From Crocinitomicaceae bacterium (lineage in GTDB: Bacteria > Bacteroidota > Bacteroidia > Flavobacteriales_D > Parvicellaceae), in assembly GCA_002716065.1 (NCBI GenBank), contig PAZE01000052.1:1-35025 (forward strand): a stretch of 35,025 nucleotides of DNA. Reading direction: 5' to 3'. The first letter of the stretch is position 1. Each line of letters starts with the position of its first letter. The notes beneath the pieces were generated by a model that was given only the letters and a program-made list of their open reading frames with translations, made no database searches and had not been told where the DNA came from. The translations under genes were made by a program, and so were the position numbers. Positions 751-35,025 of this stretch are shown here, piece by piece.

Positions 751-3033
751 ATTATTTGTTTGGGAAATTCAATTGATTTATATGCTGATACAAATGGGAT
801 GTTGGTAGAACAATTTACAATGACATTTGATAGTCCTTTTAGCTATTCAACAATTAATACCAATCTTCCTGGAAGTTATTACATTAAAGTTAGTGGCGTT
901 TACACGGCAACAGGAATGCCTTTAAATAGAGATGGTGCTTTTAATTTTGGAAATAATCCACCTACACAAAACTATGAGTGGAAGTGGAATGGTCAAAATC
1001 CAAGTACTCAAACAGCTTCAATTCCATCTTATAATGCTTCTCATGTTTATACATTAGCATTCAATGGTGGATTATCTCAAACTTTTTCTTTCTCTGAAAA
1101 TATAAATGCCCCAGGTTATAATCCTTCTTGGTGGAATGATAACTTTGGAAGTTTGAATTTTGAAATATATTATTTTGGAAATATTCTATGGTCTAACGGA
1201 GATACCAACTCAATTACTAATGTATCTCCAAATCAAACGACTAATTATTCTGTAATAATCGATTATGGTAGTGGATGTTCATCAAGCGGAAATGTTGATA
1301 TAACGGTTTCTAATCCTTTATACACCGAAACCATTACTAATGCAAATTGTGGTTTTTCGGATGGTGAGATTACCCTTACAGCAAGTAATGGAATAGTGCC
1401 ATATCAATACTCAATTGATGGCGGGGTAAGTTTTCAAAATTCTGGACTTTTTACGAATTTATTTGGTGGAGTTTATTCTGTTGTTGTTGAAGATTCTGTA
1501 GGTTGTCAGGCATCGGGGTCGATAAATCTTATTGCTAATCCTGGACCAACTATCGATAATGTTGCTCTTACAGATGAATTATGTAATGGTGATTGTCTTG
1601 GTTCTATTGCTATAATGTCTCCCAATGCTGTTGCATATAGCTTAGATAATATAACTTTCCAGAGTTCCAATTTATTTGACACTTTGTGTGCTGGAATTTA
1701 TATAGTTTATGCACAAAATTCCATAGGTTGTGTTACTGTAGATACTGTTGAGTTATTTTCCCCTTTATCGTTGTCACTAAATATTTCTAATGATACTATA
1801 ATTTGTCAAGGAACATCAGTTCAGTTAGAAGCCATATGTCAGGGTGGAGTAGGTGGTTATGCTTATCATTGGGATAATGGTTTTACAACTTCATCAATTA
1901 ACGTATCACCTTCTTCTAATCAAACCTATTGTGTTGGCGTTTCTGATGCTAATGGTTGTGAAACCAATCAATTGTGTGTTAGTGTGGATTTACATCCATC
2001 GTTAAATTTAAATAGTTTAACGGATACTTTGATATGCGATGGTGATTCAGCTCAAATAACTGCATTAGCTACATTAGGTGATGGGGGTCCATATAATTAT
2101 GTTTGGGATCAGGGATTAGGAAATGGTCAAAGCCATTATGTTAGTCCTTCATCAACTACAACGTACAATGTTGTTGTTTCTGATGGATGTGAGTCATTAA
2201 ATTCTAGTTTAACGGTTTCAGTAAGTCCAATACCAGCGATTAGTTTTACTGCATCTAATTTAGATGGTTGTATGCCAGTAGATGTTACCTTTTATGATTT
2301 AAATGTTCCTCCAGGGGCACAATGTTTATGGGATTTTGGCGATGGTGGAACAAGTGTAACTTGTGATTCTGTTAGTTATCAGTTTACTACACCTGGTTGT
2401 TGGGATATTGCACTTAACATAACTACTGCTGATGGGTGTTTATCTTCTCATATTGAATCACAATATGTATGTGTTTATGAATATCCAACTGCAAGTTTTT
2501 CATTTACACCTAATCCAACAACTTTATTGAATACTGAAATTAATTTTCAAAATTACAGTACTAGTGCTTCAAATTATCTATGGACTTTTGATGTTAATGG
2601 AAATCCTGCAAGTTCAACTAATGAAAATCCGATATATACATTTAGTGATACTCAAGAAGGAGAATATGTGGTTTGTTTAGATGCCATTAGCTCTAATGGG
2701 TGTATTGATGTTTCATGTCAGACAGTTGAAATTAATGATGTGTTTTTGGTTTATGTTCCAAATGCATTTACTCCTGGTGGTGACGATAACATAAACGATA
2801 TTTTTATTCCTGTTGTCAATGGCGCTAGTGTTAAAAACTTTGATTTTTATGTTTTTAATAGATGGGGTGAGCTGGTTTTTGAATCTCACCACGAAAGTGA
2901 GGGTTGGGATGGTTTTTATAAAGGAAAATTAGCTAAGCAGGATGCTTATGTATGGAAACTTAATTTAGTAGACGAGGCTACAAATAATTTTCATCAGTAT
3001 ACAGGAAATGTACTTCTTTTAGGAAAGAAATAA
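1..3033 (+). CDS. Secreted T9SS type B (gliding-associated C-terminal domain) repeat protein, 5' truncated
   Basis: The frame is open from base 1, and the first possible start (GTG at 58) lies inside a repeat, so the true start is upstream of the window. The visible protein begins with tandem Ig/PKD-like repeats of 71-72 residues. Each has a Cys near the start (as in VDAGVDQSVC), a YxWDNGV strand and a TGTDGNGC segment. Further degenerate repeats follow, then a PKD-type domain around residues 750-830 with WDFGDGG. The last ~90 residues (VPNAFTPGGDDNINDIF, FNRWGELVFES, WDG, DAYVWKL) match the gliding motility-associated C-terminal domain (CHU_C), the type B T9SS sorting signal. From family knowledge it should be exported by the Sec system, then by T9SS, and attached to or released from the surface, with adhesion likely. 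The first repeats use ACG threonine codons heavily, unlike the rest of the gene. The family call is secure; the specific role is unknown. Confidence 0.9.
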   Translation, partial: TTIYTVTGTDGNGCVNTDQVAITVNALPTVDAGIDQTVCFGSSVILSGSGATSYLWDNGVIDGVSFTPTVGTTTYTVTGTDGNGCVNTDQVAVTVNALPTVDAGVDQSVCIGSSVTLSGSGATSYVWDNGVIDGVSFTASTLGTTIYTVTGTDGNGCVNTDQVAIIVNALPTVDAGIDQIVCNGFAVVLNGSGAVNYNWNNGVVNGLAFVPPVGSTNYIVIGTDANGCLNSDTMTVSVNSQLNIDMISDSIICLGNSIDLYADTNGMLVEQFTMTFDSPFSYSTINTNLPGSYYIKVSGVYTATGMPLNRDGAFNFGNNPPTQNYEWKWNGQNPSTQTASIPSYNASHVYTLAFNGGLSQTFSFSENINAPGYNPSWWNDNFGSLNFEIYYFGNILWSNGDTNSITNVSPNQTTNYSVIIDYGSGCSSSGNVDITVSNPLYTETITNANCGFSDGEITLTASNGIVPYQYSIDGGVSFQNSGLFTNLFGGVYSVVVEDSVGCQASGSINLIANPGPTIDNVALTDELCNGDCLGSIAIMSPNAVAYSLDNITFQSSNLFDTLCAGIYIVYAQNSIGCVTVDTVELFSPLSLSLNISNDTIICQGTSVQLEAICQGGVGGYAYHWDNGFTTSSINVSPSSNQTYCVGVSDANGCETNQLCVSVDLHPSLNLNSLTDTLICDGDSAQITALATLGDGGPYNYVWDQGLGNGQSHYVSPSSTTTYNVVVSDGCESLNSSLTVSVSPIPAISFTASNLDGCMPVDVTFYDLNVPPGAQCLWDFGDGGTSVTCDSVSYQFTTPGCWDIALNITTADGCLSSHIESQYVCVYEYPTASFSFTPNPTTLLNTEINFQNYSTSASNYLWTFDVNGNPASSTNENPIYTFSDTQEGEYVVCLDAISSNGCIDVSCQTVEINDVFLVYVPNAFTPGGDDNINDIFIPVVNGASVKNFDFYVFNRWGELVFESHHESEGWDGFYKGKLAKQDAYVWKLNLVDEATNNFHQYTGNVLLLGKK

Positions 3034-3040
3034 GTTTTTT

Positions 3041-3907
3041 TTAAGGTGAGTTATAGGGTCTTTTATCTACGCTTGACTGCTGTACATCAATATCTTGAAT
3101 GTATATCCACTTTCCTTTTTCCAATTTAAAAGCATCAAAACTTAGATCTGTTACATACCAGTCTTTCATTCCTTCTAAATTTGGTGATTTTGGAGTAAGA
3201 TGATCAAAAATAATTAGCTCTTGTTTTTTTGATTTTTTGTATTTCAATGACATGTAAGAGTTTTTGTTGTATTGAAAAATAACTCGTCTTTTAGTTCTAA
3301 AATCATCAGAAATAAAAATAGGTAAACCGAATTTTACAGCATCTTTTTTATGAAATGCCATAGACTCAATAATTTTTTTATTAGAAAATTGATTATTCCC
3401 ATCCCAACCTAAAAGAGTGTATATGGTACTGTTTGGTTTTTTTATAGGAATAATTTTATAATAAAGAGCTCCATACCATGTTTTATCACTGTAAGATAAA
3501 TATTCTGGGTCGAAAGCAGACGCAGATTTGTCCTGTAGTTTTATAATAGAATATTGTTTAGATTTTGGATTGTACTTTAGTATTAAACAGTGATAAATAT
3601 GCTCTTGTTTAGGAAGCTCAATATTCCAATTAAAAATTCTAAAAGCATTATCTGGAGAAGTTATTGTACTCATCATTTTAGAAAGAGAGTCAAATTTAAA
3701 TGTAAATGCCTGATCATGGCTTAGTACCTTTCTAAGGTAATTTTCAAAATCAATATTTAATTCAAATGCTTTTTTTAAATCTTTTTCATTTCTAGTTTTT
3801 GTTAACAAAGAAATGAGGGTGTCTTCATGAAATATAAGTGAGTTGGTTTTTTGACTAAAACAACATGTACTTAAAAAAAGAAGAGCTATTAGATAAATTG
3901 ATTTCAT
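3041..3907 (-). CDS. Exported protein of unknown function
   Basis: 288 aa beginning with a signal peptide: MKSIYLIALLF, then STCCFSQ. Cleavage before SQK by signal peptidase I is likely. A lipobox reading using one of the two cysteines is possible but weaker. The mature part is soluble and basic, with central motifs WYGALYYKI and YTLLGWDGNN, which I recall from conserved but uncharacterised Bacteroidota proteins. No catalytic motif is recognised. It ends 8 bases from the convergent surface-protein gene and is followed upstream by the ferredoxin gene on the same strand (65-base gap). Start is the ATG at 3907, directly in front of the hydrophobic signal. No function is proposed. Confidence 0.75.
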   Translation of the reverse strand: MKSIYLIALLFLSTCCFSQKTNSLIFHEDTLISLLTKTRNEKDLKKAFELNIDFENYLRKVLSHDQAFTFKFDSLSKMMSTITSPDNAFRIFNWNIELPKQEHIYHCLILKYNPKSKQYSIIKLQDKSASAFDPEYLSYSDKTWYGALYYKIIPIKKPNSTIYTLLGWDGNNQFSNKKIIESMAFHKKDAVKFGLPIFISDDFRTKRRVIFQYNKNSYMSLKYKKSKKQELIIFDHLTPKSPNLEGMKDWYVTDLSFDAFKLEKGKWIYIQDIDVQQSSVDKRPYNSP

Positions 3908-3971
3908 GGATTTGAAGGGTCTAAAATATGTCTAAAGAAACATAACGATAGAATTGACAAGAAGTTACTCT

Positions 3972-4331
3972 TTAAGATTGAGAATTATGAAGACTATCTT
4001 TTTTTGCTAGTAATTCTTCTTCAGATTCTTGAAAATTTTCATCATCAACACAGCAATCTACAGGACATACTGCTGCACATTGTGGTTCTTCATGGAATCC
4101 AACACACTCAGTACATTTATCAGTTACGATATAGTACACATCCATATCAACTGGTTCATTTGATTCATCAGCATCTTTTTTTAGTTTAGAATTGTGTCCG
4201 TTATAGAATCCTTTTATAGATGTACCTTGGGAAAAGGTCCATTCTGCTCCACCTTCATAAATGGCATTGTTAGGGCACTCAGGTTCACAAGCCCCACAAT
4301 TTATACATTCATCTGTAATTTTAATAGCCAT
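3972..4331 (-). CDS. 4Fe-4S dicluster ferredoxin
   Basis: 119 aa. Cluster one is bound by [12 protein letters not shown] near the N-terminus (CxxCxxCxxxCP). The second set, [18 protein letters not shown], has the extended CxxC-x8-CxxxCP spacing of Alv-type bacterial ferredoxins, and the two sets should hold two low-potential [4Fe-4S] clusters. The tail is acidic. There is no signal peptide, so it should act in the cytoplasm as an electron carrier. It is transcribed divergently from the LuxC-like acyl-CoA reductase with only 41 bases between the start codons. I recall this pairing in other Bacteroidota, which suggests (not proven) a shared redox role. Start is the ATG at 4331, with a TAnnTTTG box 27 bases upstream. 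Confidence 0.92.
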
Positions 4332-4344
4332 TTATAAATGTTGT

Positions 4345-4352
4345 TATTTTTG
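4345..4352 (+). promoter_or_regulatory. Predicted -7 box of the acyl-CoA reductase gene
   Basis: TATTTTTG matches the Bacteroidota -7 consensus TAnnTTTG and lies 20 bases before the ATG at 4373. It would give a leader of about 15 nt. No clear -33 TTG is seen. Confidence 0.55.
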
Positions 4353-4357
4353 CACTG

Positions 4358-4365
4358 CAAAGATA
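4358..4365 (-). promoter_or_regulatory. Predicted -7 box of the ferredoxin gene
   Basis: On the minus strand this reads TATCTTTG (TAnnTTTG), 26 bases ahead of the ferredoxin ATG. It faces away from the plus-strand box at 4345-4352. Both sit on a perfect inverted repeat, TTTGCA-C-TGCAAA, at 4349-4361. Confidence 0.6.
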
Positions 4366-4372
4366 TATAAAA

Positions 4373-5431
4373 ATGGTTTTTTCTTCTTTAGGTAAAAAAA
4401 TATCTACACTAATTGAGCTAGGAAATGTGTTTAGAGCTATTGGTAATAATTTAAAATGGCCTGGTTATTCTTTAGGAATAAATGAAGTAGAATATGTCTC
4501 ATTTCAGGATTTAATTCCTTCGGTTAAGAGCCATAATGGATGGTTCACAATGGATGCAATTATGTACTGTTTAAATGGATGGGCTAATTTATTTACCAAA
4601 GAAAAGTTAGATCTATGGGTTGCTAATTATTCTTTTGATGAAAAAAATGAGGCTAAAACTGTAGCTTTAATATGTGCTGGTAATATTCCTATGGTTGGAT
4701 TTCATGACTTGATATGTGGGTATTTAGCTGGTAAAAAATTAATTATAAAGTTATCTTCAGATGATAATGTTTTAATCCCTGCCGTTGTTGATCTAATGAG
4801 TAAATATGACGAAAATGTTCATTCTCAGATTGTTTTTGAGAAAAATAAATTAAAAAAATTTGATGCAGTTGTTGCTACCGGTAGTAATAATACTTCTCGA
4901 TATTTTAAGGATTATTTTGGGAAATACCCTAATATTATTAGAAAAAGCAGGACCTCTATTGCGGTTTTGGATGGTAGTGAGTCAGATGAAGACTTAGAAG
5001 ATTTTTCTGAAGATGTTTTTACCTATTATGGTCTAGGTTGTAGGAATGTTACCAAAGTTTACCTGCCTGAAGGATTTGATATTAATCGAATTTTTAAAGG
5101 GTTTTTTAAAAAAAGTGATGTAATTCATAATAATAAATATGCAAATAATTATGATTACCATAAAGCCATTTTTTTGTTGGAAAATTATTCATTATTAGAA
5201 AATGGATTTATTCTTCTTAAAGAAGATAAATCAATATTTTCACCCATTGGAACCCTTTATTATGAGTTTTACAATAATTTAAAAAATCTAGAAGATTTAA
5301 TTGATCAAAATAGAGATCAGATTCAATGTAGAGTTGGAATAAATGGAATTCCATTTGGTAAGGCCCAAAAACCTGAATTGTGGGATTATGCTGATAAGGT
5401 AGATACAATGAAATTTTTAAGCTCAATTTAA
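4373..5431 (+). CDS. LuxC-family acyl-CoA reductase
   Basis: 352 aa, shorter than LuxC of luminous bacteria (about 480 aa) but as usual for the Bacteroidota branch. LuxC enzymes reduce acyl-CoA or acyl-enzyme to a fatty aldehyde with NADPH. Landmarks: ALICAGNIPMVGFHD near residues 98-112 (nucleotide-binding part of the aldehyde dehydrogenase-like fold), VVATGSNNTSRYF near 167-178, and TYYGLGCRNVTK, in which Cys223 is the predicted acyl-accepting nucleophile. No luxA, luxB, luxD or luxE is present, so this is not a luminescence operon. The next gene is convergent. The ATG at 4373 follows a -7 box closely. The neighbouring ferredoxin may supply or accept electrons in the same pathway (inference). 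The physiological substrate is unknown. Confidence 0.87.
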   Translation: MVFSSLGKKISTLIELGNVFRAIGNNLKWPGYSLGINEVEYVSFQDLIPSVKSHNGWFTMDAIMYCLNGWANLFTKEKLDLWVANYSFDEKNEAKTVALICAGNIPMVGFHDLICGYLAGKKLIIKLSSDDNVLIPAVVDLMSKYDENVHSQIVFEKNKLKKFDAVVATGSNNTSRYFKDYFGKYPNIIRKSRTSIAVLDGSESDEDLEDFSEDVFTYYGLGCRNVTKVYLPEGFDINRIFKGFFKKSDVIHNNKYANNYDYHKAIFLLENYSLLENGFILLKEDKSIFSPIGTLYYEFYNNLKNLEDLIDQNRDQIQCRVGINGIPFGKAQKPELWDYADKVDTMKFLSSI

Positions 5432-5473
5432 ATTCTAAAATTCTGGTATTTAATAAATGTTAAAGGAAATTTC

Positions 5474-5977
5474 TTAATGCAGGTAAGCTTCGATTTTATC
5501 TTTATTGAACTCAACAGTAATGTGTTCTTGAAGAGTAGTAGATAAAGTTAATCCAACCCAATCAGCTCTAATAGGAAACTTTCTGTGTCTTCTGTCAATT
5601 AATACAACTGTATTAATTTGTTTAGCGCCTTTTTGAGTAATTACACTTGCTGCATGCATCAATGTTTTTCCAGAGTTTAAAACATCATCAATAAGAACAA
5701 CAGTTTTATTTTTCAATTCAACTTCTGGTTGAATTGAAATGGGCTCACTTAATGGGTCTTTTTTATTTACTTTAAGTTCGATTAGATTTACATTAATTGA
5801 GCTTACAAGGGAAAAGTTAGTTAATATCTTTTCAGATAATACAAAACCTTTGGATGAAATTCCGACAAAAATTAGATCCTTTTCAAGATGATATTTTTCA
5901 ACTATTTGATAGGCAATTCTTTTGATTTTTTGGTTTGCTGAATTGCTATCTAGTATTAAGGTTTTTTGATCTACCAT
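5474..5977 (-). CDS. Phosphoribosyltransferase (PyrR/Hpt-like)
   Basis: 167 aa, the normal size for a type I phosphoribosyltransferase. VVLIDDVLNSGKT at residues 93-105 is the PRPP-binding loop: two acidic residues, then the small-residue turn that grips the phosphate. VGISSKGF near 38-45 fits the pyrophosphate-binding loop. Such enzymes join PRPP to a base (hypoxanthine, guanine, uracil) or, as PyrR, regulate pyrimidine genes. The sequence alone does not settle the substrate, and no pyr or purine gene is nearby. It is a single-gene unit convergent with the acyl-CoA reductase gene. A TAnnTTTG box lies about 20 bases upstream of the ATG at 5977. Confidence 0.87.
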   Translation of the reverse strand: MVDQKTLILDSNSANQKIKRIAYQIVEKYHLEKDLIFVGISSKGFVLSEKILTNFSLVSSINVNLIELKVNKKDPLSEPISIQPEVELKNKTVVLIDDVLNSGKTLMHAASVITQKGAKQINTVVLIDRRHRKFPIRADWVGLTLSTTLQEHITVEFNKDKIEAYLH

Positions 5978-5996
5978 TTTTGTGAAATTAATAGTT

Positions 5997-6004
5997 CAAA
6001 TGTA
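5997..6004 (-). promoter_or_regulatory. Predicted -7 box of the phosphoribosyltransferase gene
   Basis: Minus strand reads TACATTTG, an exact TAnnTTTG, 19 bases before the ATG. It falls immediately after the stop of the lipoprotein gene (6010), so the phosphoribosyltransferase can be expressed apart from the TonB operon. Confidence 0.55.
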
Positions 6005-6009
6005 GTTTA

Positions 6010-6468
6010 TTATTTTCTAATAAAAATGAACTCTACAGAATATCCTGAAGGAATTTTGGGAACTAATACACAATTGTCAATTTTGTTTTCTTCAATACAA
6101 TTTCCACATTCAATAAGTTCAATAGTAAAAATATATTGCTGTTGTTCAGGATTGATTTCAAGGTATCTTTTTACTTTGAATTTACATTGCCCCCATATTG
6201 TTTTACCCAATAGGGTGAATTTACTGAAATCTATTTCATTGAACAGGCATATAGTCTGGTTACTATGGGCATAGGTTGATAAAAGGTTGTATTCATCAAT
6301 GGAATTAATAACAAAACAACTATCGGGGTTTACAAGTAATGAGCAGTTAGAGCATGGATTAATAGTTGATATTTCTTGGCTGTTTAATTCTTTTTTTCCC
6401 CAACATTTTGGTGATTTATGACAAGAAGATAATCCAAAAAGTAAAAAAATATATAGTAATAAGCGCAT
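6010..6468 (-). CDS. Cysteine-rich lipoprotein, last gene of TonB operon
   Basis: 152 aa from the ATG at 6468. The frame stays open for 30 codons upstream, inside the TonB receptor gene, but this ATG is the better start: it overlaps the receptor stop as TAATG (translational coupling) and begins a clean lipoprotein signal, MRLLLYIFLLFGLSSC, with lipobox LSSC. Besides the lipidated Cys there are nine others, including CSNC, ECGNC and DSC, which could form disulfides in the periplasm or bind metal. No known family is recognised. Context implies work alongside the outer-membrane receptor encoded just upstream. It is not SusD-like: far too short, and it lacks SusD features. Confidence 0.72.
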   Translation of the reverse strand: MRLLLYIFLLFGLSSCHKSPKCWGKKELNSQEISTINPCSNCSLLVNPDSCFVINSIDEYNLLSTYAHSNQTICLFNEIDFSKFTLLGKTIWGQCKFKVKRYLEINPEQQQYIFTIELIECGNCIEENKIDNCVLVPKIPSGYSVEFIFIRK

Positions 6469-9122
6469 TAAAATTGAACTACTAATTTTAAGTTTAATCT
6501 TCTTGAAGTTAGAAAATTTGGAACTGAATATTGCCTTCCAGTAACATCTTTTATCCACGAATAGTTGGTGGTATTTGAAATATCTAGAAGGTTAAAAACT
6601 TCAAAAGCAATCCACATATGGTTAATTTTATTCAAAAATGATTTTTCTTTGAATTTAGACTTATCGGTTTGGTTGTTAATAATATCTTTAGAAAAACCGA
6701 TGTCTAGTCTTCTATAAAATGACGATCTTAAGGTGTCTGAGAATCGTTCGGCAGAGGGAGGGCCATAAGGAAGTCTAGTGCCAAAGAGCATATTTAAATT
6801 CACTTTAAATGTACTCCATTTTACTTTCTCAGTATCCCATTCTTTAGGCATTTGATCTTGGAAGAATAAGGCAAAAGATACTCTTTGATCTGTAGGTCTT
6901 GGAATATATCCGGGAAAAGTAATGGTGCTGTCTACTGGTATATTATCTAAAGTATAACCATTTATTATTTGCTCATTCTGTGAGTTGTAATAGGTCCAGT
7001 AATAATCATTAAGTATATCTTCTTGAGTTTTTAACCAGCTTAAAGAAGCATAGGATTCGATTCCTTTAACAAACTCTCCATTTAATTTTAAATCAATTCC
7101 AGTGGCATATCCTTTAGCATTGTTTTCACCGTAATATCGAACTCTGATGTTGTCAATTTTATAGGGGATAATATCACTAAGATGTTTGTAGTAGATTTCA
7201 CTTCCGAATTTAAAGGGTCTATCCCATAGCTCAAAAATGTAATCACCACCAAGTACAAAATGAATAGACTTTTGGGCTCTTATTGAAGGGTTTAAATCTC
7301 CGTTAAAATTTCTTATGGCACGATAAAAAGGTGGTTGATAGTAATATCCTGTAGCGAGTCTAAAAACAACATTTTCTCTATAAACTTTACCTTTTTTTAA
7401 TTTATACCATGCCGGTTTTAGCTGTAGGCTTATTCTTGGAGAAACAACGAGTTGGTTATTGTAGTCCCAGTAGTGAGCTCGTGTGCCAATAGTAAAAGAA
7501 AGGAATCTATATCCCATAAAGGAGGTGTCTGTAAAAGTTTGGATTCCATCAATAACACTGCTGTCTGTAATTGTTATTGATTTTTCCTTAGATAGTTTTA
7601 CTCGATCTTGAAAATAGCCTGAAATTCGGCTGCTTTGAATGGCGTTAGTTGCTTTTATACTATTGCTTAAATGTAGGTATTGATATGGGATATTACTTGG
7701 GATCGTATAGCCTATACTGTCTTGTGGATGAGGGACATTGAATCTAGCTGAATCAATATGATTCCATTCAGTTATTTGATCGTTGATTATTTCATGTTGA
7801 AATTTTGCTCCCCATTCAAAGGTTTGATTGTAATTGATTAATTTCCCCTTGTGGTAGGCATTGTATACGGTGGCATCAATTCTATTCCTTGCGTGGTTTA
7901 AAAATGCACCAACTCCTCTGTTAAATGCTACTTCTCCATATTCATCACTTCCAAGATCTCTTTCTAGCTCATCTAGGCGATACTCTCCAAGAATGTCAAA
8001 ATATTCCTTTTCATGGGTTTCATATATGGAAGATATAAATTTAAGTTTTAGGTTGTCATTAGGTTCATTTGATAATGATATAGCACCCATGTAGGTTTCA
8101 TATTGTGTTATTTCTTGACCTTCGTAATAAACAGTAAATCGAAGTGCTTCATTGATGCTTCCCCAATTGGTTTCTCTATTGGATGGAACAATCCTGAAGT
8201 TGTTGTTGGAGTAGGTGCCAAAAAAGCTCATTTTCCAATTTTCATTTAGGTAGTAATTAAAGAAGCCTTGATAATCAACAAAACTAGGCTTGTAATCACC
8301 TTTTGTATCCAGTGAGTTTAACAGGTAAGCATTTTTTCTGAATCTAATACTAGTGTTAAAATTAAATCTTGTAGATGGTCTGTCTTGAACGTGAACATGT
8401 GTGCCCATTAAACTAGCGATAAAAGAAGAATTGAATTTTTTGGGTTCTGTGTATTCAATATCTAAAACACTTGATAGTTTATCTCCATATTTAGCATCAA
8501 ATCCACCCGCAGAAAATAAAATATTACTAATCATACTTGGGTTGATAAAGCTTAACCCTTCTTGCTGACCAGATCTTGCCAAGAAAGGTCTATACACCTC
8601 AATGTCGTTAACATAGATTAAATTTTCATCAAAATTACCTCCTCTAACATTATAACCCGCAGATAATTCATTATTCTGAGAAACTCCAAATCCTAGGGCT
8701 GGTAGTAAGCCTTCAATATTTGATGAGGGTAAAGAAATAGAGGCAGCATCGATTTTGTTTATAGATTCAATAGGGGATGTGCCTTGCTCTTTATATCTGA
8801 TTTCTACCTCGTCTAATGTTGGAATAGATAGTTGAATCTCTAAATCTACATGCTGTCCACTTTTTAATTTTAGTGTGGTTTTTTTGGGTAAAAATTGAAC
8901 ATGAGAAACTTTAATAGTTATTTTTTTATCGATTGGTACATTAAGCTCAAAACCACCATCTTTATTAGATACTGTACCAAGTCTTGTGCCTAAAATTATA
9001 ATATTGGCATTTTCAACAGCACTTAAGTTGTCATCAACAATTCGTCCATAGATGGTTCCTAATTCTTGAGCAGATAAGTTGTGAATTAAAAAAAATGATA
9101 TTATAAAGAAAAAATACTTCAA
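6468..9122 (-). CDS. TonB-dependent outer-membrane receptor
   Basis: 884 aa. Signal peptide MKYFFFIISFFLIHNLSAQ; then a CarboxypepD_reg-like beta-sandwich (about 20-105, with GTIYGRIVDD and NAIVLGTRLGT-like strands); a plug domain (about 115-225, with GYNVRGGNFDENLIYVNDI); then a 22-strand-type barrel rich in aromatic residues, ending in a typical outer-membrane terminal strand (LNLKLVVQF). TonB-ExbBD-energised receptors of this form import large or scarce ligands such as metal complexes or glycans. The ligand cannot be read from the sequence, and no SusD partner is present, which argues against a canonical glycan utilisation system. The start is a TTG at 9122, three bases after the stop of the previous gene. 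It is the only start that gives an intact signal peptide. Confidence 0.9.
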   Translation of the reverse strand: MKYFFFIISFFLIHNLSAQELGTIYGRIVDDNLSAVENANIIILGTRLGTVSNKDGGFELNVPIDKKITIKVSHVQFLPKKTTLKLKSGQHVDLEIQLSIPTLDEVEIRYKEQGTSPIESINKIDAASISLPSSNIEGLLPALGFGVSQNNELSAGYNVRGGNFDENLIYVNDIEVYRPFLARSGQQEGLSFINPSMISNILFSAGGFDAKYGDKLSSVLDIEYTEPKKFNSSFIASLMGTHVHVQDRPSTRFNFNTSIRFRKNAYLLNSLDTKGDYKPSFVDYQGFFNYYLNENWKMSFFGTYSNNNFRIVPSNRETNWGSINEALRFTVYYEGQEITQYETYMGAISLSNEPNDNLKLKFISSIYETHEKEYFDILGEYRLDELERDLGSDEYGEVAFNRGVGAFLNHARNRIDATVYNAYHKGKLINYNQTFEWGAKFQHEIINDQITEWNHIDSARFNVPHPQDSIGYTIPSNIPYQYLHLSNSIKATNAIQSSRISGYFQDRVKLSKEKSITITDSSVIDGIQTFTDTSFMGYRFLSFTIGTRAHYWDYNNQLVVSPRISLQLKPAWYKLKKGKVYRENVVFRLATGYYYQPPFYRAIRNFNGDLNPSIRAQKSIHFVLGGDYIFELWDRPFKFGSEIYYKHLSDIIPYKIDNIRVRYYGENNAKGYATGIDLKLNGEFVKGIESYASLSWLKTQEDILNDYYWTYYNSQNEQIINGYTLDNIPVDSTITFPGYIPRPTDQRVSFALFFQDQMPKEWDTEKVKWSTFKVNLNMLFGTRLPYGPPSAERFSDTLRSSFYRRLDIGFSKDIINNQTDKSKFKEKSFLNKINHMWIAFEVFNLLDISNTTNYSWIKDVTGRQYSVPNFLTSRRLNLKLVVQF

Positions 9123-9125
9123 GAA

Positions 9126-9767
9126 TTAGTTGTCTTTTCTTTTAAAGTCCCCATTTTTCCAAGCTTTTATGAATTGTGCCCAAGCTATTGGATTCATTAA
9201 GTTGTTTGGGGGATATTGACCAGCATAATACAATTTGCTTTGAATTTGTTGTTGTTGCCATTTAAAATTCATTGCTCCATTCATAGGAATAGCATCCATT
9301 CTATCTTTCATTTCAGCACGTTCTAAATTAGCAAGAGCTCTTCTGTAATCATCATTAGGTATTTTTGTGTTTACAAAAGCATCGGCAAATTGTTCTTTTG
9401 AAGGCCATGGATAGATAACAGCAGTTTGAAGTAAGATAGTGTCTTCATACATAAGTTGAATAAGCGAATATTTATTAGTGGTTAATGAGTCAGGTATTAC
9501 AAATTGTGCTTTTTTATACCCTACGCTACTGAATTTTAAGGTGTCTCCTTTTCGAGCAACAAAAGAAAAATACCCAAAATAATCAGATGTTGTTCCCCTA
9601 GAGGTTGCTACATCAATAATACTACAATAGGGAACAGGTTTTAAGCTGTCACTTGAAATAACTACACCACTGAATTGTATTAAATCTTTAGATTTAAAAT
9701 TAGTCTGGCATATTGCAGATAAAGTGAAGATTAATAATAATATGGCAATACTTATTCTCTTTAGCAT
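9126..9767 (-). CDS. CarboxypepD_reg-like domain exported protein
   Basis: 213 aa. Signal peptide MLKRISIAILLLIFTLSAICQ, then FSGVVISSDSLKPVPYCSI...GTTSDYFGYFSF...VGYKKAQF. This is the carboxypeptidase regulatory-like beta-sandwich common in Bacteroidota cell-envelope proteins. After it comes a helical region containing IPNDDYRRALANLERAEM, then FKWQQQQIQSKLYYAGQ. No enzyme motif is seen. It heads a three-gene operon and ends three bases before the TonB receptor start, so a role in the same outer-membrane complex is likely. Start is the ATG at 9767. No exact TAnnTTTG box is visible in the 97 bases separating it from the divergent gene. Confidence 0.78.
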   Translation of the reverse strand: MLKRISIAILLLIFTLSAICQTNFKSKDLIQFSGVVISSDSLKPVPYCSIIDVATSRGTTSDYFGYFSFVARKGDTLKFSSVGYKKAQFVIPDSLTTNKYSLIQLMYEDTILLQTAVIYPWPSKEQFADAFVNTKIPNDDYRRALANLERAEMKDRMDAIPMNGAMNFKWQQQQIQSKLYYAGQYPPNNLMNPIAWAQFIKAWKNGDFKRKDN

Positions 9768-9864
9768 AAGGGTATAAACTCTATTGTCTTCCTATTTAGT
9801 ATATTCAAGACTGCTAAATTAACAAAAAGTAATTGTCGTATATTTAGCTTCATTAAAATTGATT

Positions 9865-10902
9865 ATGAAACTACTCTCTATTTTTTTACTTATTCCCTTT
9901 TTTTCAATTGGACAAATTGTTATCACAAGTTCTGATTTACCATCAAGTGGTCAAAACTATTATTACTCAACTATTTTAAATACACTTTCATTTGATGTTA
10001 ATCTAACTGGACAAAATTATACATGGGACATTTCTTCATTACAAGCTGACGCACAGGATTCTTTAATAACTGTTCCTGTTTCAAGTACACCGCTTGCGTA
10101 TCAGCTTTATTTTAATAACTTTTTGCTTTATCCTGATTATTTGGCTTCTTATGCTCAACAAGGAAATGATTTGTCTTTAATGAGTACGGTTACCATAACT
10201 GATAGATATGATTATTATAAAGTATCTTCAAATTCATTTAGTATCGTTGGTTTTGGTGCAAATGTAAATGGGTTACCCACGTCAGTTAAATACGATGTTA
10301 TTGATGAGCTTTTTTCATTGCCTTTAGTATATGGTATTGTTGATTCATCATCTTCCAATTACTTGTCAACTATACCATCAATTGGTAGTTATGGTCAATG
10401 GATTAATAGATATATTGAAGTAGATGGATGGGGTCAGTTAATAACACCAAACTCTTCATTTGATGTGTTAAGATTGAAAACTACATTATCTTTAAAAGAT
10501 ACTGTTTTTGTTGATCAGCTTAATTTAGGCACGTCTTTTAATCGACCGGTTGAAACCATATATGAGTGGTATTCTAATGGAGTTGGTCCTCCCGTTTTTT
10601 CTGTAACTGTTCAAGCTGGCGTAATTACCCAAATGAAATATCTCAATCAAATAGGAAGTTCATTGAATCAACAAGAAGATTTGCCGATTGTCCTTTATCC
10701 TAATCCTATTGTTGATGAATTGTTTATTGATGTAAATTCAATTCAAATCGAAACGATTTCTATTTGTAGTATTGATGGAAGCTTAATTAGAGAATTTAAC
10801 AACCAAAATAAACTTTCTTTAAGTTTTCTTGAGAGTGGCTGTTATATTTTAAATGTAAGAACGATAAAAGGTACGTTTACTAAAAAGTTTATCAAGCTTT
10901 AA
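9865..10902 (+). CDS. T9SS type A sorting domain protein
   Basis: 345 aa from the ATG at 9865; an in-frame TTG two codons upstream is less likely. Signal peptide MKLLSIFLLIPFFSIGQ. The body is a beta-rich domain of unknown fold (SSDLPSSGQNYYYST, YTWDISSLQ, YDVIDELFSLPLVYG, YIEVDGWGQLITP). This layout resembles uncharacterised secreted Bacteroidota proteins. The C-terminal ~70 residues (VLYPNPIVDELFID, ICSIDGSLIREF, SGCYILNVRTIKGTFTKKFIKL) are the Por_Secre_tail type A signal, which T9SS cleaves and exchanges for a lipid-linked sugar. It is transcribed divergently from the TonB operon. Its last 4 bases overlap the convergent ZIP transporter gene. Confidence 0.85.
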   Translation: MKLLSIFLLIPFFSIGQIVITSSDLPSSGQNYYYSTILNTLSFDVNLTGQNYTWDISSLQADAQDSLITVPVSSTPLAYQLYFNNFLLYPDYLASYAQQGNDLSLMSTVTITDRYDYYKVSSNSFSIVGFGANVNGLPTSVKYDVIDELFSLPLVYGIVDSSSSNYLSTIPSIGSYGQWINRYIEVDGWGQLITPNSSFDVLRLKTTLSLKDTVFVDQLNLGTSFNRPVETIYEWYSNGVGPPVFSVTVQAGVITQMKYLNQIGSSLNQQEDLPIVLYPNPIVDELFIDVNSIQIETISICSIDGSLIREFNNQNKLSLSFLESGCYILNVRTIKGTFTKKFIKL

Positions 10903-11648
10903 GAATAGATAATTACGCCTAAAAATAATCCTCCAATTATTAATCCAATAGTAATCCACTTTTGTTGAGGGTTATGGTATTTTTCAAAAACAAGTAGTGT
11001 GGCTATGTGAATAAGCATTCCTGTAGAAAGGGCAAGCAAAAGAGTACTCAGTTCTGCTATTTCTGATGTTTCAGAAAGATAAAAACCAAAAACAGCACCT
11101 AGGGGAGCAGTTAAAGCAAATAACAGTAATAAGGCATATCTATTCCATATGGATTTAATGTGTTGAATTAAAAAAAACATGAGAATTGCGGCAATTGGTA
11201 GTTTGTGAACTAAAATCATGGTGAAATAAACTTCTCCGATTTCATTTGCGTGGTTGTGATGGTGAGCATGGCCAATAGTTGATTCTGTTGAAATTAACGG
11301 CATTCCTTCAATAAATGAATGCAAACAAAGACCAAGCATCAACGGTAAAATTAGCTTTATTCCTGTGTGATTTTTTGGAGCGTGCACATGGCCATGTTCT
11401 ATACCTTTAGAGAGTAATTCTAATACAATTTGAAGGGCAAATCCAATGACAAAAAATAATCCAACAAGGTGATTTTGTGATTCATATAATTCTGGAAGGA
11501 TGTGAATAAAGATTAAAGAGAGAATAAAGGCAATTCCAAAAGGAATTACAAACTTGTTTAGGAAGCTGATTTTTTTTTGAAAAAAATCAGCTGTAATTCC
11601 TGCCAATATAACAGAAAAGAAAATAATATATAATGTTTCTGGATTCAT
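10899..11648 (-). CDS. ZIP family divalent metal transporter
   Basis: 249 aa with about eight membrane helices. The metal site of ZIP proteins is visible as HSFIEGMPL (helix 4, the HNxxEG-type motif with Ser for Asn) and HKLPIA (helix 5, the HKxPE-type motif ending in Ala rather than Glu). Histidine clusters HGHVHAPKNH and HAHHHNH lie in loops and could collect zinc or a similar ion. ZIP proteins move Zn2+, Fe2+ or Mn2+ into the cytoplasm. The direction and ion are not certain here. It shares an ATGA overlap (11645-11648) with the upstream methyltransferase gene, so the two are coupled. No Zur-like operator is recognised. Confidence 0.85.
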   Translation of the reverse strand: MNPETLYIIFFSVILAGITADFFQKKISFLNKFVIPFGIAFILSLIFIHILPELYESQNHLVGLFFVIGFALQIVLELLSKGIEHGHVHAPKNHTGIKLILPLMLGLCLHSFIEGMPLISTESTIGHAHHHNHANEIGEVYFTMILVHKLPIAAILMFFLIQHIKSIWNRYALLLLFALTAPLGAVFGFYLSETSEIAELSTLLLALSTGMLIHIATLLVFEKYHNPQQKWITIGLIIGGLFLGVIIYS

Positions 11649-12379
11649 GTCTTTTTAGCTATCAATATTAATCTGTTAGAATGGTTGGGATTGTAAGTGT
11701 CTAAATTGTAATCTCCAAAAGTATTGATTAGTTTAAAATTACTTTTTGAAAATAAGTAGGTAAAGTCCTTTAAAGTTAATAGTTGTACACTTTCTATGTA
11801 AGAATATGGTTGGTTATTATCCTTAAATTGAATCGTTTTAACCACTCTTTGGTCAATAATTGTTCTTTTGATGTAAAAAGATATTTCATCAATGGTTTTA
11901 ACTTCATTTTTTATAAGTTCGTTTTTTACTTTATTGGCATTAAAGAAATCTATAATTAATAACCCCTTTTCATTAAGGTTTGTGTAACATTGTTTTAGCA
12001 CCTTCAAATTGTCATCAATAGAGCTGAAATAACCAAAACTTGTAAATAGATTAAAGATGCCGTCAACTTTATGATTCAACTTAAATTCTCTCATATCTTG
12101 AACCGAAAATGAGAGCCCATGTGAAGTCGTTTTTTTAGCTTCATTAATACTTTGACTAGATAAATCTATTCCAATTACATTTTTATATATTTTACTAAGT
12201 TCTATAGAGTGTCTTCCTTTTCCACATCCTAAATCTAGAACGGAGGAATTTTCAGCTAAGTTGATATTTTTCGTTAGTTTTCTGATAAAAGCTTTTGCTT
12301 CACTATTGTCTCTATTTTTATAAAGAATGTGATAATACTTGGAGTCGAACCAACCTATAAACCAATCATTTTCTTTCAT
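11645..12379 (-). CDS. Class I SAM-dependent methyltransferase
   Basis: 244 aa from the ATG at 12379; a TTG at 12388 is in frame but lies within the predicted promoter. Motif I is SVLDLGCGKGRHSIELSK (about residues 45-62), followed by NVIGIDLSSQSI with the acidic residue that binds the ribose of S-adenosylmethionine. Motif II/III regions read VDGIFNLFTSFGYF and NEKGLLIIDFFNA. The family acts on small molecules, and the substrate is unknown. The N-terminal pattern NDWFIGWFDSKYYHILYKNRD is typical of a conserved Bacteroidota subgroup. It forms a two-gene operon with the ZIP transporter, which may be only a house arrangement. Confidence 0.87.
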   Translation of the reverse strand: MKENDWFIGWFDSKYYHILYKNRDNSEAKAFIRKLTKNINLAENSSVLDLGCGKGRHSIELSKIYKNVIGIDLSSQSINEAKKTTSHGLSFSVQDMREFKLNHKVDGIFNLFTSFGYFSSIDDNLKVLKQCYTNLNEKGLLIIDFFNANKVKNELIKNEVKTIDEISFYIKRTIIDQRVVKTIQFKDNNQPYSYIESVQLLTLKDFTYLFSKSNFKLINTFGDYNLDTYNPNHSNRLILIAKKT

Positions 12380-12385
12380 CGTTTG

Positions 12386-12393
12386 CAAATATA
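12386..12393 (-). promoter_or_regulatory. Predicted -7 box of the methyltransferase-ZIP operon
   Basis: Minus strand reads TATATTTG, an exact TAnnTTTG. It ends only 6 bases before the ATG at 12379, so transcription would start at or within a couple of bases of the start codon. Confidence 0.55.
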
Positions 12394-12429
12394 GGGTTTG
12401 ATTATTGATTTTCTTGCTACTTTTAAAAC

Positions 12430-13212
12430 GTGAAATATATATTTTATACTGCCTTATTTATTGCACTATTTTCTTCTTGCAGAAATAACGAATCTAGAAG
12501 TATTCAAACAGCAAAAGACTACTTACATATTTCTAATCATCTTTCTACAGTTGTTCCTTTTGTAATTAAAGTTTCAGAAGATTCCACATATCTTAAACAG
12601 TTGCTTTCTAATCAATCAGATACTAGCTTCAGCTGTGCCTCTTTTAATTATATTTCTGGAGATACTTCCAGTATGGAAGGACCTATAGAATTTGAAATTG
12701 ATTTTTATCAGGGTTGTGTGGATAAGGATGGTATTGCAAAAGCTGGTTTGGTGTACTGTATTCTACAGCAGCCTGTTTCTAATATCGATGCGGTCTGTCA
12801 GGTGCAATTTGATGGATTTAAAATTTCAAATGATTTTTTTTGGGGAGGCTTTAATTTAACAACTAAAGATATTAATAAGTGGAAGGTGATTACAACTGAT
12901 TATTCCATACAATCTGTAAAAAAACAAACTACACTTTTAGATACGCTTTTATTTTGTAAGGTTTCTTCAAATCCTTTTAATAGTCTTGATGATCAATTTA
13001 TAATTTCTTCAAAAGGGTTGCTGAACCAATCAGTTGAAGGTTATTCAACAGATTTAGTAAAAATAGTAGGATGCAATTGGTTTTCTCAGGGAATTATCGA
13101 GTTGGATATTGAAGATCAAACAAAGCAAATAATAAATCTTGGTGCTGGTGATTGTGATAATGAGGCCCTACTGGAAATTGGTGCATATGATTTTGTTGTA
13201 CAAATGAATTAA
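12430..13212 (+). CDS. Lipoprotein of unknown function
   Basis: 260 aa from a GTG at 12430. MKYIFYTALFIALFSSC is a lipoprotein signal with lipobox FSSC, so it should be anchored in the outer or inner membrane facing the periplasm. The mature part has several Cys residues (SFSCASF, YQGCVDKDG, VYCILQQ, AVCQVQF, VGCNW, GDCDNEALLEIG), probably forming disulfides. The final GAGDCDNEA...Y.F.VQM segment resembles the end of other Bacteroidota lipoproteins, but I cannot name the family. It stands alone: divergent from the methyltransferase, and 57 bases before siaB, which has its own promoter box. Confidence 0.75.
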   Translation: MKYIFYTALFIALFSSCRNNESRSIQTAKDYLHISNHLSTVVPFVIKVSEDSTYLKQLLSNQSDTSFSCASFNYISGDTSSMEGPIEFEIDFYQGCVDKDGIAKAGLVYCILQQPVSNIDAVCQVQFDGFKISNDFFWGGFNLTTKDINKWKVITTDYSIQSVKKQTTLLDTLLFCKVSSNPFNSLDDQFIISSKGLLNQSVEGYSTDLVKIVGCNWFSQGIIELDIEDQTKQIINLGAGDCDNEALLEIGAYDFVVQMN

Positions 13213-13239
13213 TTCGATATAATTTTTAACCTAAATGAT

Positions 13240-13247
13240 TATATTTG
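13240..13247 (+). promoter_or_regulatory. Predicted -7 box of siaB-siaC
   Basis: TATATTTG, an exact TAnnTTTG, 22 bases before the siaB ATG. The 57-base gap also supports an independent start for this pair. Confidence 0.6.
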
Positions 13248-13269
13248 CTCAACTAATGAAAAAAAGTTA

Positions 13270-13824
13270 ATGGACGCTTTTAATTTATACTCCCAAATGG
13301 AACGTGATGACGTTCTAATTGCATTTAAAGGGTCTATAACATCTGAGTTGCTAACCTCTGTCTTACAGATTATGGAAACAAAGATGGAAGATTTACACGA
13401 AGCCCCTAGAACAAGAAAGAAAGTTTTTAATGTTCTTGTTGAATGTTTGCAAAATCTATATCATCATATTGATGAGTTTGAAGTAGTTGGAACACCAGAA
13501 GAGATTTCTGAAAAAAAGTCAGCTATTTTTAGTATTAGTCGATCTGTTGAATCTTACAATATTGTTACCGGTAATTTTGTTTCTAAGGATAATGTTAATA
13601 ATTTAACTGGTAAAATAAATAAGGTTAATGATTTAAATAGAGAGGAGTTAAAAGCATACTACAAACAAGTTCTCAATAATGGAGAGATTAGTGATAAAGG
13701 AGGCGGAGGTTTAGGTTTTATAGATATTGCTAAAAAGTCAGGCGAAAAATTAGTTTATAATATAAGAGAGATAGATGAAAACTATTCTTTTTTTACGTTA
13801 ACAGTTAAAATATCACAAATTTGA
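13270..13824 (+). CDS. siaB: SiaB-family protein kinase
   Basis: 184 aa. It matches the SiaB/DUF6272 family, kinases with a GHKL (histidine-kinase-like) ATP-binding fold that phosphorylate SiaC. The N-box is visible as NVLVECLQNLYHH (about residues 55-67, Glu and Asn for Mg-ATP). The G-box is DKGGGGLGFIDIAKKSG (about 139-155). There is no sensor or membrane segment, so it is cytoplasmic. Its stop is 5 bases before the siaC ATG, making a tight two-gene operon. In Pseudomonas aeruginosa SiaABCD controls a diguanylate cyclase and aggregation. Neither the phosphatase SiaA nor SiaD is nearby here, so the input and output are unknown. The family call is firm; the symbol is by homology. Confidence 0.85.
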   Translation: MDAFNLYSQMERDDVLIAFKGSITSELLTSVLQIMETKMEDLHEAPRTRKKVFNVLVECLQNLYHHIDEFEVVGTPEEISEKKSAIFSISRSVESYNIVTGNFVSKDNVNNLTGKINKVNDLNREELKAYYKQVLNNGEISDKGGGGLGFIDIAKKSGEKLVYNIREIDENYSFFTLTVKISQI

Positions 13825-13829
13825 TTATA

Positions 13830-14204
13830 ATGGAAGATTTAAGTTTAGAAGGTACAGCTAAAACACCAACGGTTGATTTTAAATCCGCGGGTGAATTATT
13901 AATTAAAGGTCGTTCAATTCCAGAAAACTCAATTGAGTTTTATAAACCTTTAATTGATTGGATTGCTGCTTACAGTGATAATCCAAAGGAAAATACGTTG
14001 GTAAATATTCAATTGGAGTATTTTAATACAAGTTCTTCGAAATGTATTCTTGATGTATTTAAAAAATTAGAATCTATTAGTGATAGTACTGTTTCAGTAA
14101 AATGGTACTACGAAGAAGATGATGAAGATATGCTAGAAGCTGGTGAAGATTATGAAGCTATTATTGATTTATCATTTGAGATGATTGAAGTTGAAGAGCT
14201 TTAA
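13830..14204 (+). CDS. siaC: SiaC-family regulatory phosphoprotein (DUF1987)
   Basis: 124 aa from the ATG at 13830; an upstream TTG in frame overlaps the siaB stop and is less likely. It begins with the usual DUF1987 pattern: LEGTAKTPTVDF, then GRSIPENSIEFYKPLIDWI. The motif LEYFNTSSSKCILD holds Thr67, which aligns with the Thr68 reported as the phosphosite in P. aeruginosa SiaC. The tail is strongly acidic (YYEEDDEDMLEAGEDYEA). Known SiaC proteins switch binding partner on phosphorylation by SiaB. A strong intrinsic terminator follows at 14227. Confidence 0.87.
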   Translation: MEDLSLEGTAKTPTVDFKSAGELLIKGRSIPENSIEFYKPLIDWIAAYSDNPKENTLVNIQLEYFNTSSSKCILDVFKKLESISDSTVSVKWYYEEDDEDMLEAGEDYEAIIDLSFEMIEVEEL

Positions 14205-14226
14205 TTGTAAAATTTTTACTTTTTTC

Positions 14227-14257
14227 AGGCTGTTCAATATGAGCAGCCTTTTTTTTG
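14227..14257 (+). terminator. Intrinsic terminator after siaC, touching cmk
   Basis: Stem AGGCTGTTC / GAGCAGCCT (9 pairs with one G-U) at 14227-14235 and 14241-14249, loop AATAT, then eight T. The T-run ends 4 bases before the cmk ATG. Confidence 0.85.
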
Positions 14258-14260
14258 CTT

Positions 14261-14953
14261 ATGGATAAAATAACGATAACTCTTGATGGACATTCTGGGT
14301 GTGGGAAAAGTACTCTTGCAAAATTAATCGCCCAAGAATTAGACTACATTTATGTAGATACAGGAGCAATGTATAGAGCTATAACTTATTATTATTTATC
14401 TAACGGATTGCTTCAAAATAATTTATTTATTGAGGGTTGGGAGAGTCATCTTGACTCAATTGTTCTTTCATTTGAAAAGCATAAAAATTACAATACTAAT
14501 GTTATTTTTCTAAATGGAGAATGTGTTGAGCATAAAATAAGAACAATGCAGGTTTCTTCATTGGTTTCCTATGTTAGTAAACAAGCTATAATTAGAGAAA
14601 AGCTTGTTGATTTTCAGCGATTTATTGGGAAAAATAGTGGGGTGGTAATGGATGGTAGAGATATCGGTAGTGTAGTATTTCCGAATGCTGAGATTAAATT
14701 TTGGGTTACTGCAAGTGCTAGGGTAAGAGCTCAAAGAAGATATGAGGAAATTATTAATAGCGGACTTTCGGTAGATTTTGAAGATGTTTTACAGAACCTT
14801 AAGGATAGGGATTTTGAAGATTCTAATCGAAAAATAAGTCCACTGAAAAGACCTGAGGATTCTTATTTAGTTGATAGTTCAAATTTAACTATACAGCAAA
14901 CGCTAAATTATTCAATGGATTTTATAAATTCTTATTTTGAGAAAAAAAATTGA
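14261..14953 (+). CDS. cmk: Cytidylate kinase
   Basis: 230 aa, normal length. It phosphorylates CMP and dCMP to the diphosphates with ATP. The P-loop is TLDGHSGCGKSTLAK (about 5-19). DTGAMYRAI (about 34-42) is the hallmark of Cmk substrate binding, and MDGRDIGSVVFPNAEIKFWV (around 130-150) with ARVRAQRRYEE supplies the phosphate-binding arginines. The ATG at 14261 is chosen; an in-frame TTG at 14255 lies in the terminator T-run. It ends overlapping the truA start (TTGA). No ribosome-binding site can fit except within the terminator hairpin, which is odd. Expression must come from readthrough or an unseen promoter. Confidence 0.95.
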   Translation: MDKITITLDGHSGCGKSTLAKLIAQELDYIYVDTGAMYRAITYYYLSNGLLQNNLFIEGWESHLDSIVLSFEKHKNYNTNVIFLNGECVEHKIRTMQVSSLVSYVSKQAIIREKLVDFQRFIGKNSGVVMDGRDIGSVVFPNAEIKFWVTASARVRAQRRYEEIINSGLSVDFEDVLQNLKDRDFEDSNRKISPLKRPEDSYLVDSSNLTIQQTLNYSMDFINSYFEKKN

Positions 14954-34102: not shown

Positions 34103-34499
34103 GGGGCCGATTTTGGATTTGACAGCAAGAGAAATTGTTATGTAAGCATGCCGAGTATTGTGAATGATCTCGTAAAAAACAATTCTCAAGTCTATAAACG
34201 ACAACAACAACTACGCGCTTGCAGCTTAATCACTAGGTGATTACGCCTAATCCCGCTGATAAGATCGGCCGGACAAGCTGCCCAGCTAGGGTTACCCGTT
34301 TAGCGGCCTTAGTAATTGGGTATCGTTGGTCTAAACTAAGTGATGTAAGGTCTTGATGCATCAACGAAAATTTAAAAGACTAAGTGGTAAGTGGGGTGTT
34401 TGTGCTCAGCTTACTATCGAAAATCAATTGCAAAATAAGCATGTAGAAAGCCTAATGGTTCCTTGTTTGGACGAGGGTTCGAAACCCTCCGGCTCCACC
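34103..34499 (+). ncRNA. ssrA: Transfer-messenger RNA (tmRNA)
   Basis: About 397 nt. The 5' end, GGGGCCGATTTTGGATTTGAC, is the tmRNA acceptor and D-like arm. GCATGCCGAG and CTCGTAAAAA mark pseudoknot 1. The tag frame reads AAC-GAC-AAC-AAC-AAC-TAC-GCG-CTT-GCA-GCT-TAA, giving NDNNNYALAA, with the C-terminal YALAA degron read by ClpXP. No Ala or Gly resume codon lies in that frame just upstream, so the first tag residue is uncertain (Ile from ATA or Asn are candidates). The 3' end has the T-arm GAGGGTTCGAAACCCTC and acceptor strand CGGCTCC. The discriminator A (34497) and CC are encoded, but the final A is not. tmRNA with SmpB frees stalled ribosomes. The 3' end is abutted by a recombinase gene. 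Confidence 0.96.
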
Positions 34500-34545
34500 T
34501 TGTGGGACAGTTTCAATTTTTTCGAAAACTGTCCCTTATTTTTTT
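34424..34545. mobile_element. Probable island boundary (attachment region) at the ssrA 3' end
   Basis: The recombinase gene enters from the right and ends across the ssrA terminator and 3' end. ssrA itself is intact. This is the standard geometry of an integrated element whose integrase gene lies beside the att site. The crossover core is not defined: no duplicate of the ssrA 3' end lies in the window, as expected if the other boundary is to the right. Confidence 0.55.
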
Positions 34546-35025
34546 CTTCTAAGTTCTTGTCTATCTGTAAGATATATCTAAGTGCATCGTTGATTCTTGG
34601 TGTTCGACATTTTTTTCCGTCAAATTGTAGTTTTTCTGGAAAAATCGAACTTATAATTTCCTGTTTTTGAGCTACAGTTGATTTATCATACAGTCTTTTA
34701 ATGATAGTTAACTCATCAAATCCCATTTTAAGCCAGTTCTTGAATTCTGCATCTTTAATATCACTTTCTCCAATTTTTAATTCAAGCTTTTGTTTTGTTT
34801 CTGAGTATCGAATCATTGTATTTTCATAATTATCATATTCAATCTTTCCATCTACAAGCAAATCCTGAAGTTTAGATATTCTATCCTTAATTTTTTTTAA
34901 TTCAATCTTTGATTTATTTAGATTTTTCTTATCATCTTTTTCTGTTGTATTTAAAATAGATTTTACAAATTCTGTGTAAAGTGTTTTGGTTGGTTTAGTG
35001 AATTTAAAATCATTTAGTATTTCAT
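34424..35025 (-). CDS. Serine recombinase (integrase) C-terminal part, 5' truncated by window end
   Basis: The frame is open from 35023 down to the TGA at 34424-34426, about 199 codons; the start and catalytic domain lie beyond the window. The first ~75 residues form a charged coiled coil (DDKKNLNKSKIELKKIKDRI, LQDLLVDGKIEYDNYENTM), as in the zinc-ribbon/coiled-coil region of large serine recombinases. GFDELTIIKRLYDKSTVAQK, then IISSIFPEKLQFDGKKCRTP and RINDALRYIL, match the usual end of Bacteroidota recombinase-family proteins. The last ~35 residues (SHKVEPEGFEPSSKQGTIRL...) are antisense ssrA terminator and T-arm, so this tail was probably created by insertion next to ssrA. The catalytic Ser is not visible, so the class rests on the C-terminal pattern. 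Confidence 0.75.
   Translation of the reverse strand, partial: EILNDFKFTKPTKTLYTEFVKSILNTTEKDDKKNLNKSKIELKKIKDRISKLQDLLVDGKIEYDNYENTMIRYSETKQKLELKIGESDIKDAEFKNWLKMGFDELTIIKRLYDKSTVAQKQEIISSIFPEKLQFDGKKCRTPRINDALRYILQIDKNLEEKNKGQFSKKLKLSHKVEPEGFEPSSKQGTIRLSTCLFCN
34504..34545 (+). terminator. Intrinsic terminator of ssrA
   Basis: Stem GGGACAGTTT / AAACTGTCCC (10 perfect pairs; 34504-34513 with 34526-34535), loop of about 12 bases, then a T-rich run. It starts 5 bases after the tmRNA 3' end and lies inside the antisense recombinase reading frame. Confidence 0.88.

Follow-up and report, generated by a model that had tools for sequence, protein, structure and literature searches.

Our analysis implies that the window, which is the entire contig C52 of a draft genome (35,025 bases, ending at position 35025), ends in an island that a large serine recombinase (LSR) placed at the ssrA 3' end, that the attP of this island lies inside the recombinase coding sequence, and that integration swaps the tail of the enzyme. 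We put the probability of this reading at about 80%. The LSR family, the open frame, the attachment core, the distal peptide and the 5-bp motif shift are demonstrated from the sequence, and the tail swap could, as a hypothesis, act as a switch for direction control.

The recombinase and the ssrA junction

The integration target, ssrA (tmRNA), is intact at 34103-34499 (+) according to ARAGORN and encodes the tag DNNNYALAA. The 3' part of the LSR gene occupies 34424-35023 on the minus strand as an open frame coming in from the contig end, while its N-terminal part falls past 35025 and is missing in the window. The frame stops at TGA (34426-34424, -) and overlaps ssrA over 76 nt, stop included. 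The earlier note had described a frame that runs from the window edge through the ssrA terminator and the T-arm without a stop, and this is confirmed over 199 open codons. Its figure of about 35 added residues has to be corrected: the antisense ssrA tail exists, but about 24 residues are antisense ssrA and the larger figure counts part of the terminator. The terminator hairpin of ssrA (34504-34536, +; fold of -14.3 kcal/mol in the window) is supplied by the island and lies within the recombinase coding sequence. The attachment core GTGGAGCCGGAGGG (34485-34498, -), which also occurs at distal ends in genomes G013 and G006, begins at the in-frame Val codon 34498-34496 (-). At 16 nt from this codon stands the antisense T-loop hexamer TCGAAC (34477-34482, -), the proposed attB motif for the zinc-ribbon domain. 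In the integrated form the host codes for the tail FEPSSKQGTIRLSTCLFCN and the stop (34424-34484, -), which are proposed to stand in for a circle-coded tail, and the integrated protein in the window ends ...KLKLSHKVEPEGFEPSSKQGTIRLSTCLFCN. In another genome (L054, G026 C27, 350-745, -) ARAGORN reads the tmRNA tag as DNNNYRLAA against the usual YALAA ending, which may be a sequence error.

The fragment in the window alone matches the PHROG 95 integrase profile (E=1.4e-5). Its best-matching full relative, found in G013, is 75% identical in amino acids over residues 1-171, begins with MKNAVIMSRVSSEEQ, carries the catalytic motif MSRVSSEEQ and the Pfam domains Resolvase (1.7e-26), Recombinase (2.2e-12) and Zn_ribbon (5.7e-8), and is frameshifted some 40 codons from its end. 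The domain order of large serine recombinases (Resolvase with the catalytic Ser, Recombinase, zinc ribbon) is present in this relative and in other homologs. The assignment of the window gene to the LSRs is thus supported, and the gene beside attL is of the serine type proposed in the earlier note and not a tyrosine integrase. On the island side past the recombinase in G013 (L034, 13550-17970) lie PKD-like repeat and secretion-tail proteins, which are possible cargo. Relatives of the recombinase are present in 107 of 295 genomes taken from across the class. Most homologs have the full length of 520-550 aa and keep the catalytic motifs, and the named relatives belong to Flavobacteriales and other Bacteroidota, among them the isolates Flavobacterium luteum, F. 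lacus and Winogradskyella haliclonae. The homologs adjoin the 3' ends of tmRNA and of at least 19 tRNA isoacceptors. No close relatives were found in viral contigs or in phage or plasmid collections.

An island to the right of ssrA had also been proposed, and this agrees with the comparison of close genomes: ssrA in G010 carries neither this island nor such a recombinase at that point, and what follows ssrA in G010 is similar to the displaced host flank beside the G013 and G006 distal ends. The distal end of the window's own island was searched for and not found in this genome, which is 85% complete. Distal ends of the ssrA type are present in G002 (same genus), G006, G013 and G017. The tails encoded there, each followed by a stop, are VEPEGQISNSLKSDLKRLIRFIYEFKEDK in G013, VEPEGQISNNLQSDLKRLIRFIYKFSS in G006 and VEPKLQFSNSFRSDLKRLMRFIYKFKS in G002, and the 14-nt ssrA core at the G013 and G006 distal ends is followed by ACAGATCTCGAAC... 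or ACAGATTTCGAAC... By analogy with these ends, the free form of the window island should end ...KLKLSHKVEPEGQISNSxxSDLKRLIRFIYxF...

Two probable ends of one gene

The window junction was compared with its homologs in a set of 101 junctions, all distinct, which form 79 clusters below 70% nucleotide identity. The antisense T-loop is read in one frame, as G-x-E-P or its equivalent, at 100 of them. The distance from the last conserved protein block/core to the T-loop takes ten in-register values (55, 58, 61, 64 ... 88 nt), and the single out-of-register junction has a distance of 72 nt. A stop occurs in the recombinase frame at 1 of the 101 junctions, and in the other two frames at 83 and 84. 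That the run into the RNA gene stays in frame beyond chance is confirmed. Read on the tRNA strand, the junction stretch folds into a strong hairpin (mean MFE of -19.7 kcal/mol over 70 junctions, against -6.4 kcal/mol for shuffles), and the new terminator of the target is supplied by the island from within the recombinase gene.

At the other end of the islands a conserved peptide, V-x6-S-N-x-F-x-x-D-L-x-x-L, is encoded in frame across the attachment core at each recognised distal end. It was first noticed at natural tandem-island junctions, VESEGDLSNFLEDDLKL and VEQEGGFSNFLEGDLEL, on one contig of the MAG UBA4466; at a further tandem junction, in G011, the recombinase runs past the core into VTSSGDSSNFLEDLKALE. 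A search with a C-terminal profile, followed by inspection of the matches, gave 18 junctions with the peptide, and the spacing from Val to S-N is exactly 7 codons in 17 of these. When a profile of the peptide was run over 983 kb of oriented island regions, ten matches of at least 12 bits were obtained on the recombinase strand (two training junctions, one match nearly identical to a training sequence and seven independent ones), and none at this threshold on the opposite strand or in the reversed or complemented sequence of the same 983 kb. The matches that were examined sit at the outer island edge and are preceded by bases that match the end of the cognate tRNA. The UBA4466 tandem islands carry two nearly identical recombinases and different cargo, and three related attachment junctions (L185 at 11512 and 15332, L188 at 11512) share a stretch of about 13.4 kb on a single contig of this MAG. 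The L188 and L210 contigs end inside or at the antisense T-loop of an att junction, which suggests assembly branching at repeated or mixed att states.

Pairs of attachment sites were delimited at tRNA-Leu (39.3 kb, core GTACCCC), tRNA-Met (18.3 kb), tRNA-Ser (34.4 kb), tRNA-Ala (32-47 kb, with three nested ends) and tRNA-Pro (36.5 kb). Their common core, at the RNA 3' end, measures 5-9 nt. Every attB rebuilt from these pairs folds as an intact tRNA, and in several cases a native terminator follows directly. Relatives of the window element thus have the marks of a genomic island, namely an RNA 3' end, attL and attR, and a restorable attB. For many other islands no distal end was found within 40-60 kb. 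When the entire tRNA 3' end was used to look for repeats, most islands gave no result, since their true core is no longer than 6-14 nt. The 16-19 nt identities from T-loop to CCA at tRNA-Val and tRNA-His in G004 were considered as attR and rejected; they come without the peptide and probably belong to other elements.

The earlier suggestion that the C-terminus differs between the integrated and the excised enzyme is borne out by these attL/attR pairs, by the tandem junctions and by the ssrA-type distal ends: attP is located inside the integrase frame, so that integration would change the C-terminus. The data support a scheme in which joined ends give the recombinase its conserved C-terminus and integration substitutes antisense-tRNA residues. 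On a free circle or in tandem copies the gene would pass the core (Val-x6) into S-N-x-F-x-x-D-L-x-x-L and then stop, and after integration the gene beside the target would read antisense tRNA (G-x-E-P ...). The crossover would fall at the start of the Val codon region, among its first few bases.

One would argue that the overlap is incidental, the C-terminus of the recombinase being dispensable and its tail without a role in either form. Integrated tails indeed differ freely in length and sequence, McMurdie et al. judged a function of the ssrA-encoded part unlikely in a comparable case (PMC3146451), and in the AlphaFold model of a natural circle-form protein (L185) the core is confident and tail residues 504-533 score below 50. 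However, a dispensable tail does not account for a frame that is kept at all but one junction and changes length in register only, nor for a distal peptide that is conserved with exact spacing. We therefore consider an incidental overlap rather unlikely.

Constraints on the distal segment

The position of the T-loop hexamer connects the junctions to the known behavior of large serine integrases. TCGAAC, the antisense T-loop, stands at Val+16 in 92 of the 101 attL and at Val+21 in 22 of the 35 distal ends, which represent the attP side. Its place in attP is thus 5 bp further outward than in attB, where the distance is taken from attL as 16 nt. In G011, where the target has the rarer T-loop TCAAAC, attP likewise has TCAAAC. 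In A118-type serine integrases, too, the zinc-ribbon motif of attB sits 5 bp nearer to the centre than its attP counterpart (PMC3783163). The same LSR property is found here in one half-site and with a putative motif, and the symmetric GTTCGA is absent from P-right. We infer that the T-loop serves the enzymes of the family as the zinc-ribbon motif of attB. The many targets are probably explained by GTTCGA, which is common to nearly all tRNAs, acting as this motif, and the G-x-E-P frame would follow from the fixed 16-nt distance.

These data raise the question of whether the distal segment is simply a DNA site, a P-arm with the zinc-ribbon motif, whose open frame arises as a by-product. The hexamer TCGAAC hardly varies and matches the T-loop variant of the target; it makes up most of the S-N codons and at that place is a DNA-level signal. 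Additionally, the nonsynonymous/synonymous ratio is 0.99 in the close ssrA-type set (G002, G006, G013, G017, G026), which was counted against a protein-level tail, and several copies in this set look like remnants. Beyond the hexamer, however, the second codon positions are the most conserved. Pairwise identity beyond the S-N codons of 26 diverse distal ends is 0.37, 0.48 and 0.33 at positions 1, 2 and 3, with position 2 somewhat inflated by the choice of part of the set by protein similarity, and 414 of the 786 same-residue pairs use different codons. The peak at position 2 together with the differing synonymous codons points to a protein-level constraint. A pure DNA site would also leave the register of the upstream coding frame unexplained. 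Thus it is not likely that the segment serves as DNA alone, and constraints on DNA and on protein may both be at work. A recombinase gene that died at an ssrA hotspot, with readthrough as a product of its decay, is more improbable still: G017 does have relics at ssrA and G026 has them at other places, and the G013 copy is frameshifted, but the window frame is open throughout and most homologs are complete with their catalytic motifs.

Returning to the tail swap, we propose with some reserve what it could do. The circle form would be the integration-competent enzyme, and the tail-swapped form would be weaker or biased towards excision. A widespread family of serine integrases would in this manner sense its own location: the native tail would exist only on the circle and be lost on integration at any tRNA or tmRNA gene, and a constant attachment motif mimicking the T-loop would let the family move between tRNA targets. 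We rate this wider proposal at somewhat less than an even chance.

Precedents and other elements at ssrA

The general statement that ssrA is used mainly by tyrosine recombinases holds, but in 2011 Dehalococcoides was reported to have a serine recombinase that overlaps ssrA (PMC3146451). In this enzyme, DsiB of the Dehalococcoides ssrA islands, the frame overlaps attL in every case and has its stop beyond the island border; its authors suggested that full function may need the circle, or a position downstream of a neighbouring island that holds the missing 3' fragment (McMurdie et al. 2011, PMC3146451). DsiB resembles the family in the window in being of the serine type, in its place at ssrA and in the overlap of its frame with attL. 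However, it belongs to Chloroflexi, has one target, is paired with DsiA, its insertion was placed in the T-loop, and no conserved circle-coded tail was demonstrated, whereas the family described here belongs to Bacteroidota, uses many tRNA targets with a core of 6-14 nt at the RNA 3' end and has a conserved tail.

Attachment sites within integrase genes occur in tyrosine recombinases as well. The archaeal SSV-type integrases are tyrosine recombinases with attP inside the gene, and integration at the tRNA target splits this gene into two large fragments; in contrast, the Bacteroidota family loses only the last 12-35 codons and its frame stays open. IntP of Myxococcus phage Mx8 is a tyrosine integrase of a single phage with two neighbouring attB sites. 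Like the window family, it has attP within the integrase coding sequence and receives a new 3' end on integration, which alters but does not abolish its activity (PMC6070905). Mx8 was characterised by experiment and the Bacteroidota recombinases by sequence only. Taken together, DsiB and Mx8 IntP are precedents for part of the tail-swap arrangement. A118/LI-type integrases are not known to take their last codons from attP or to target tRNA T-loops. These integrases share with the window family the domain order and the 5-bp shift of the zinc-ribbon motif (PMC3783163). What appears to be new is a large family in another phylum with many tRNA targets, the 5-bp motif shift and, at the distal end, a conserved segment that the integrated gene lacks. 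Our search of the literature, mainly of its open-access part, returned no report of the family, its range of tRNA targets, the distal segment or the motif shift.

Integration and excision by serine integrases are understood to be kept apart by separate directionality factors. If our proposal is true, a recombination that rewrites the end of its own enzyme would be a second, built-in means of direction control, and recognition of the T-loop would account for the large number of tRNA genes used by one family. For annotation, the last residues (...GxEP...) of these recombinases should be read as antisense tRNA. The missing 3' codons mark the distal island end, and islands can therefore be delimited despite a very short core.

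Another element shares the ssrA site in G017. Its tandem 25-nt ssrA repeats were tried as attR of the serine recombinase element and rejected, since the arm repeats and the adjacent tyrosine-type integrase indicate a different element. There (L033, G017 C3:25000-44999, 2522-14852) ssrA is followed by four segments, each ending in the same 25-nt ssrA 3' end and having a conserved left arm of about 75 nt with two TGTTTGACCT repeats. The first segment has the tyrosine-type integrase, the others have small cargo genes and no integrase, and the whole looks like a cassette array moved in trans. At the opposite end of the window, positions 1-3033 (+) cover the start of a long, repetitive protein of the surface type; its repeats are nearly identical (ITVNALPTVDAGIDQTVCFGSS...), and it is truncated where the contig begins.
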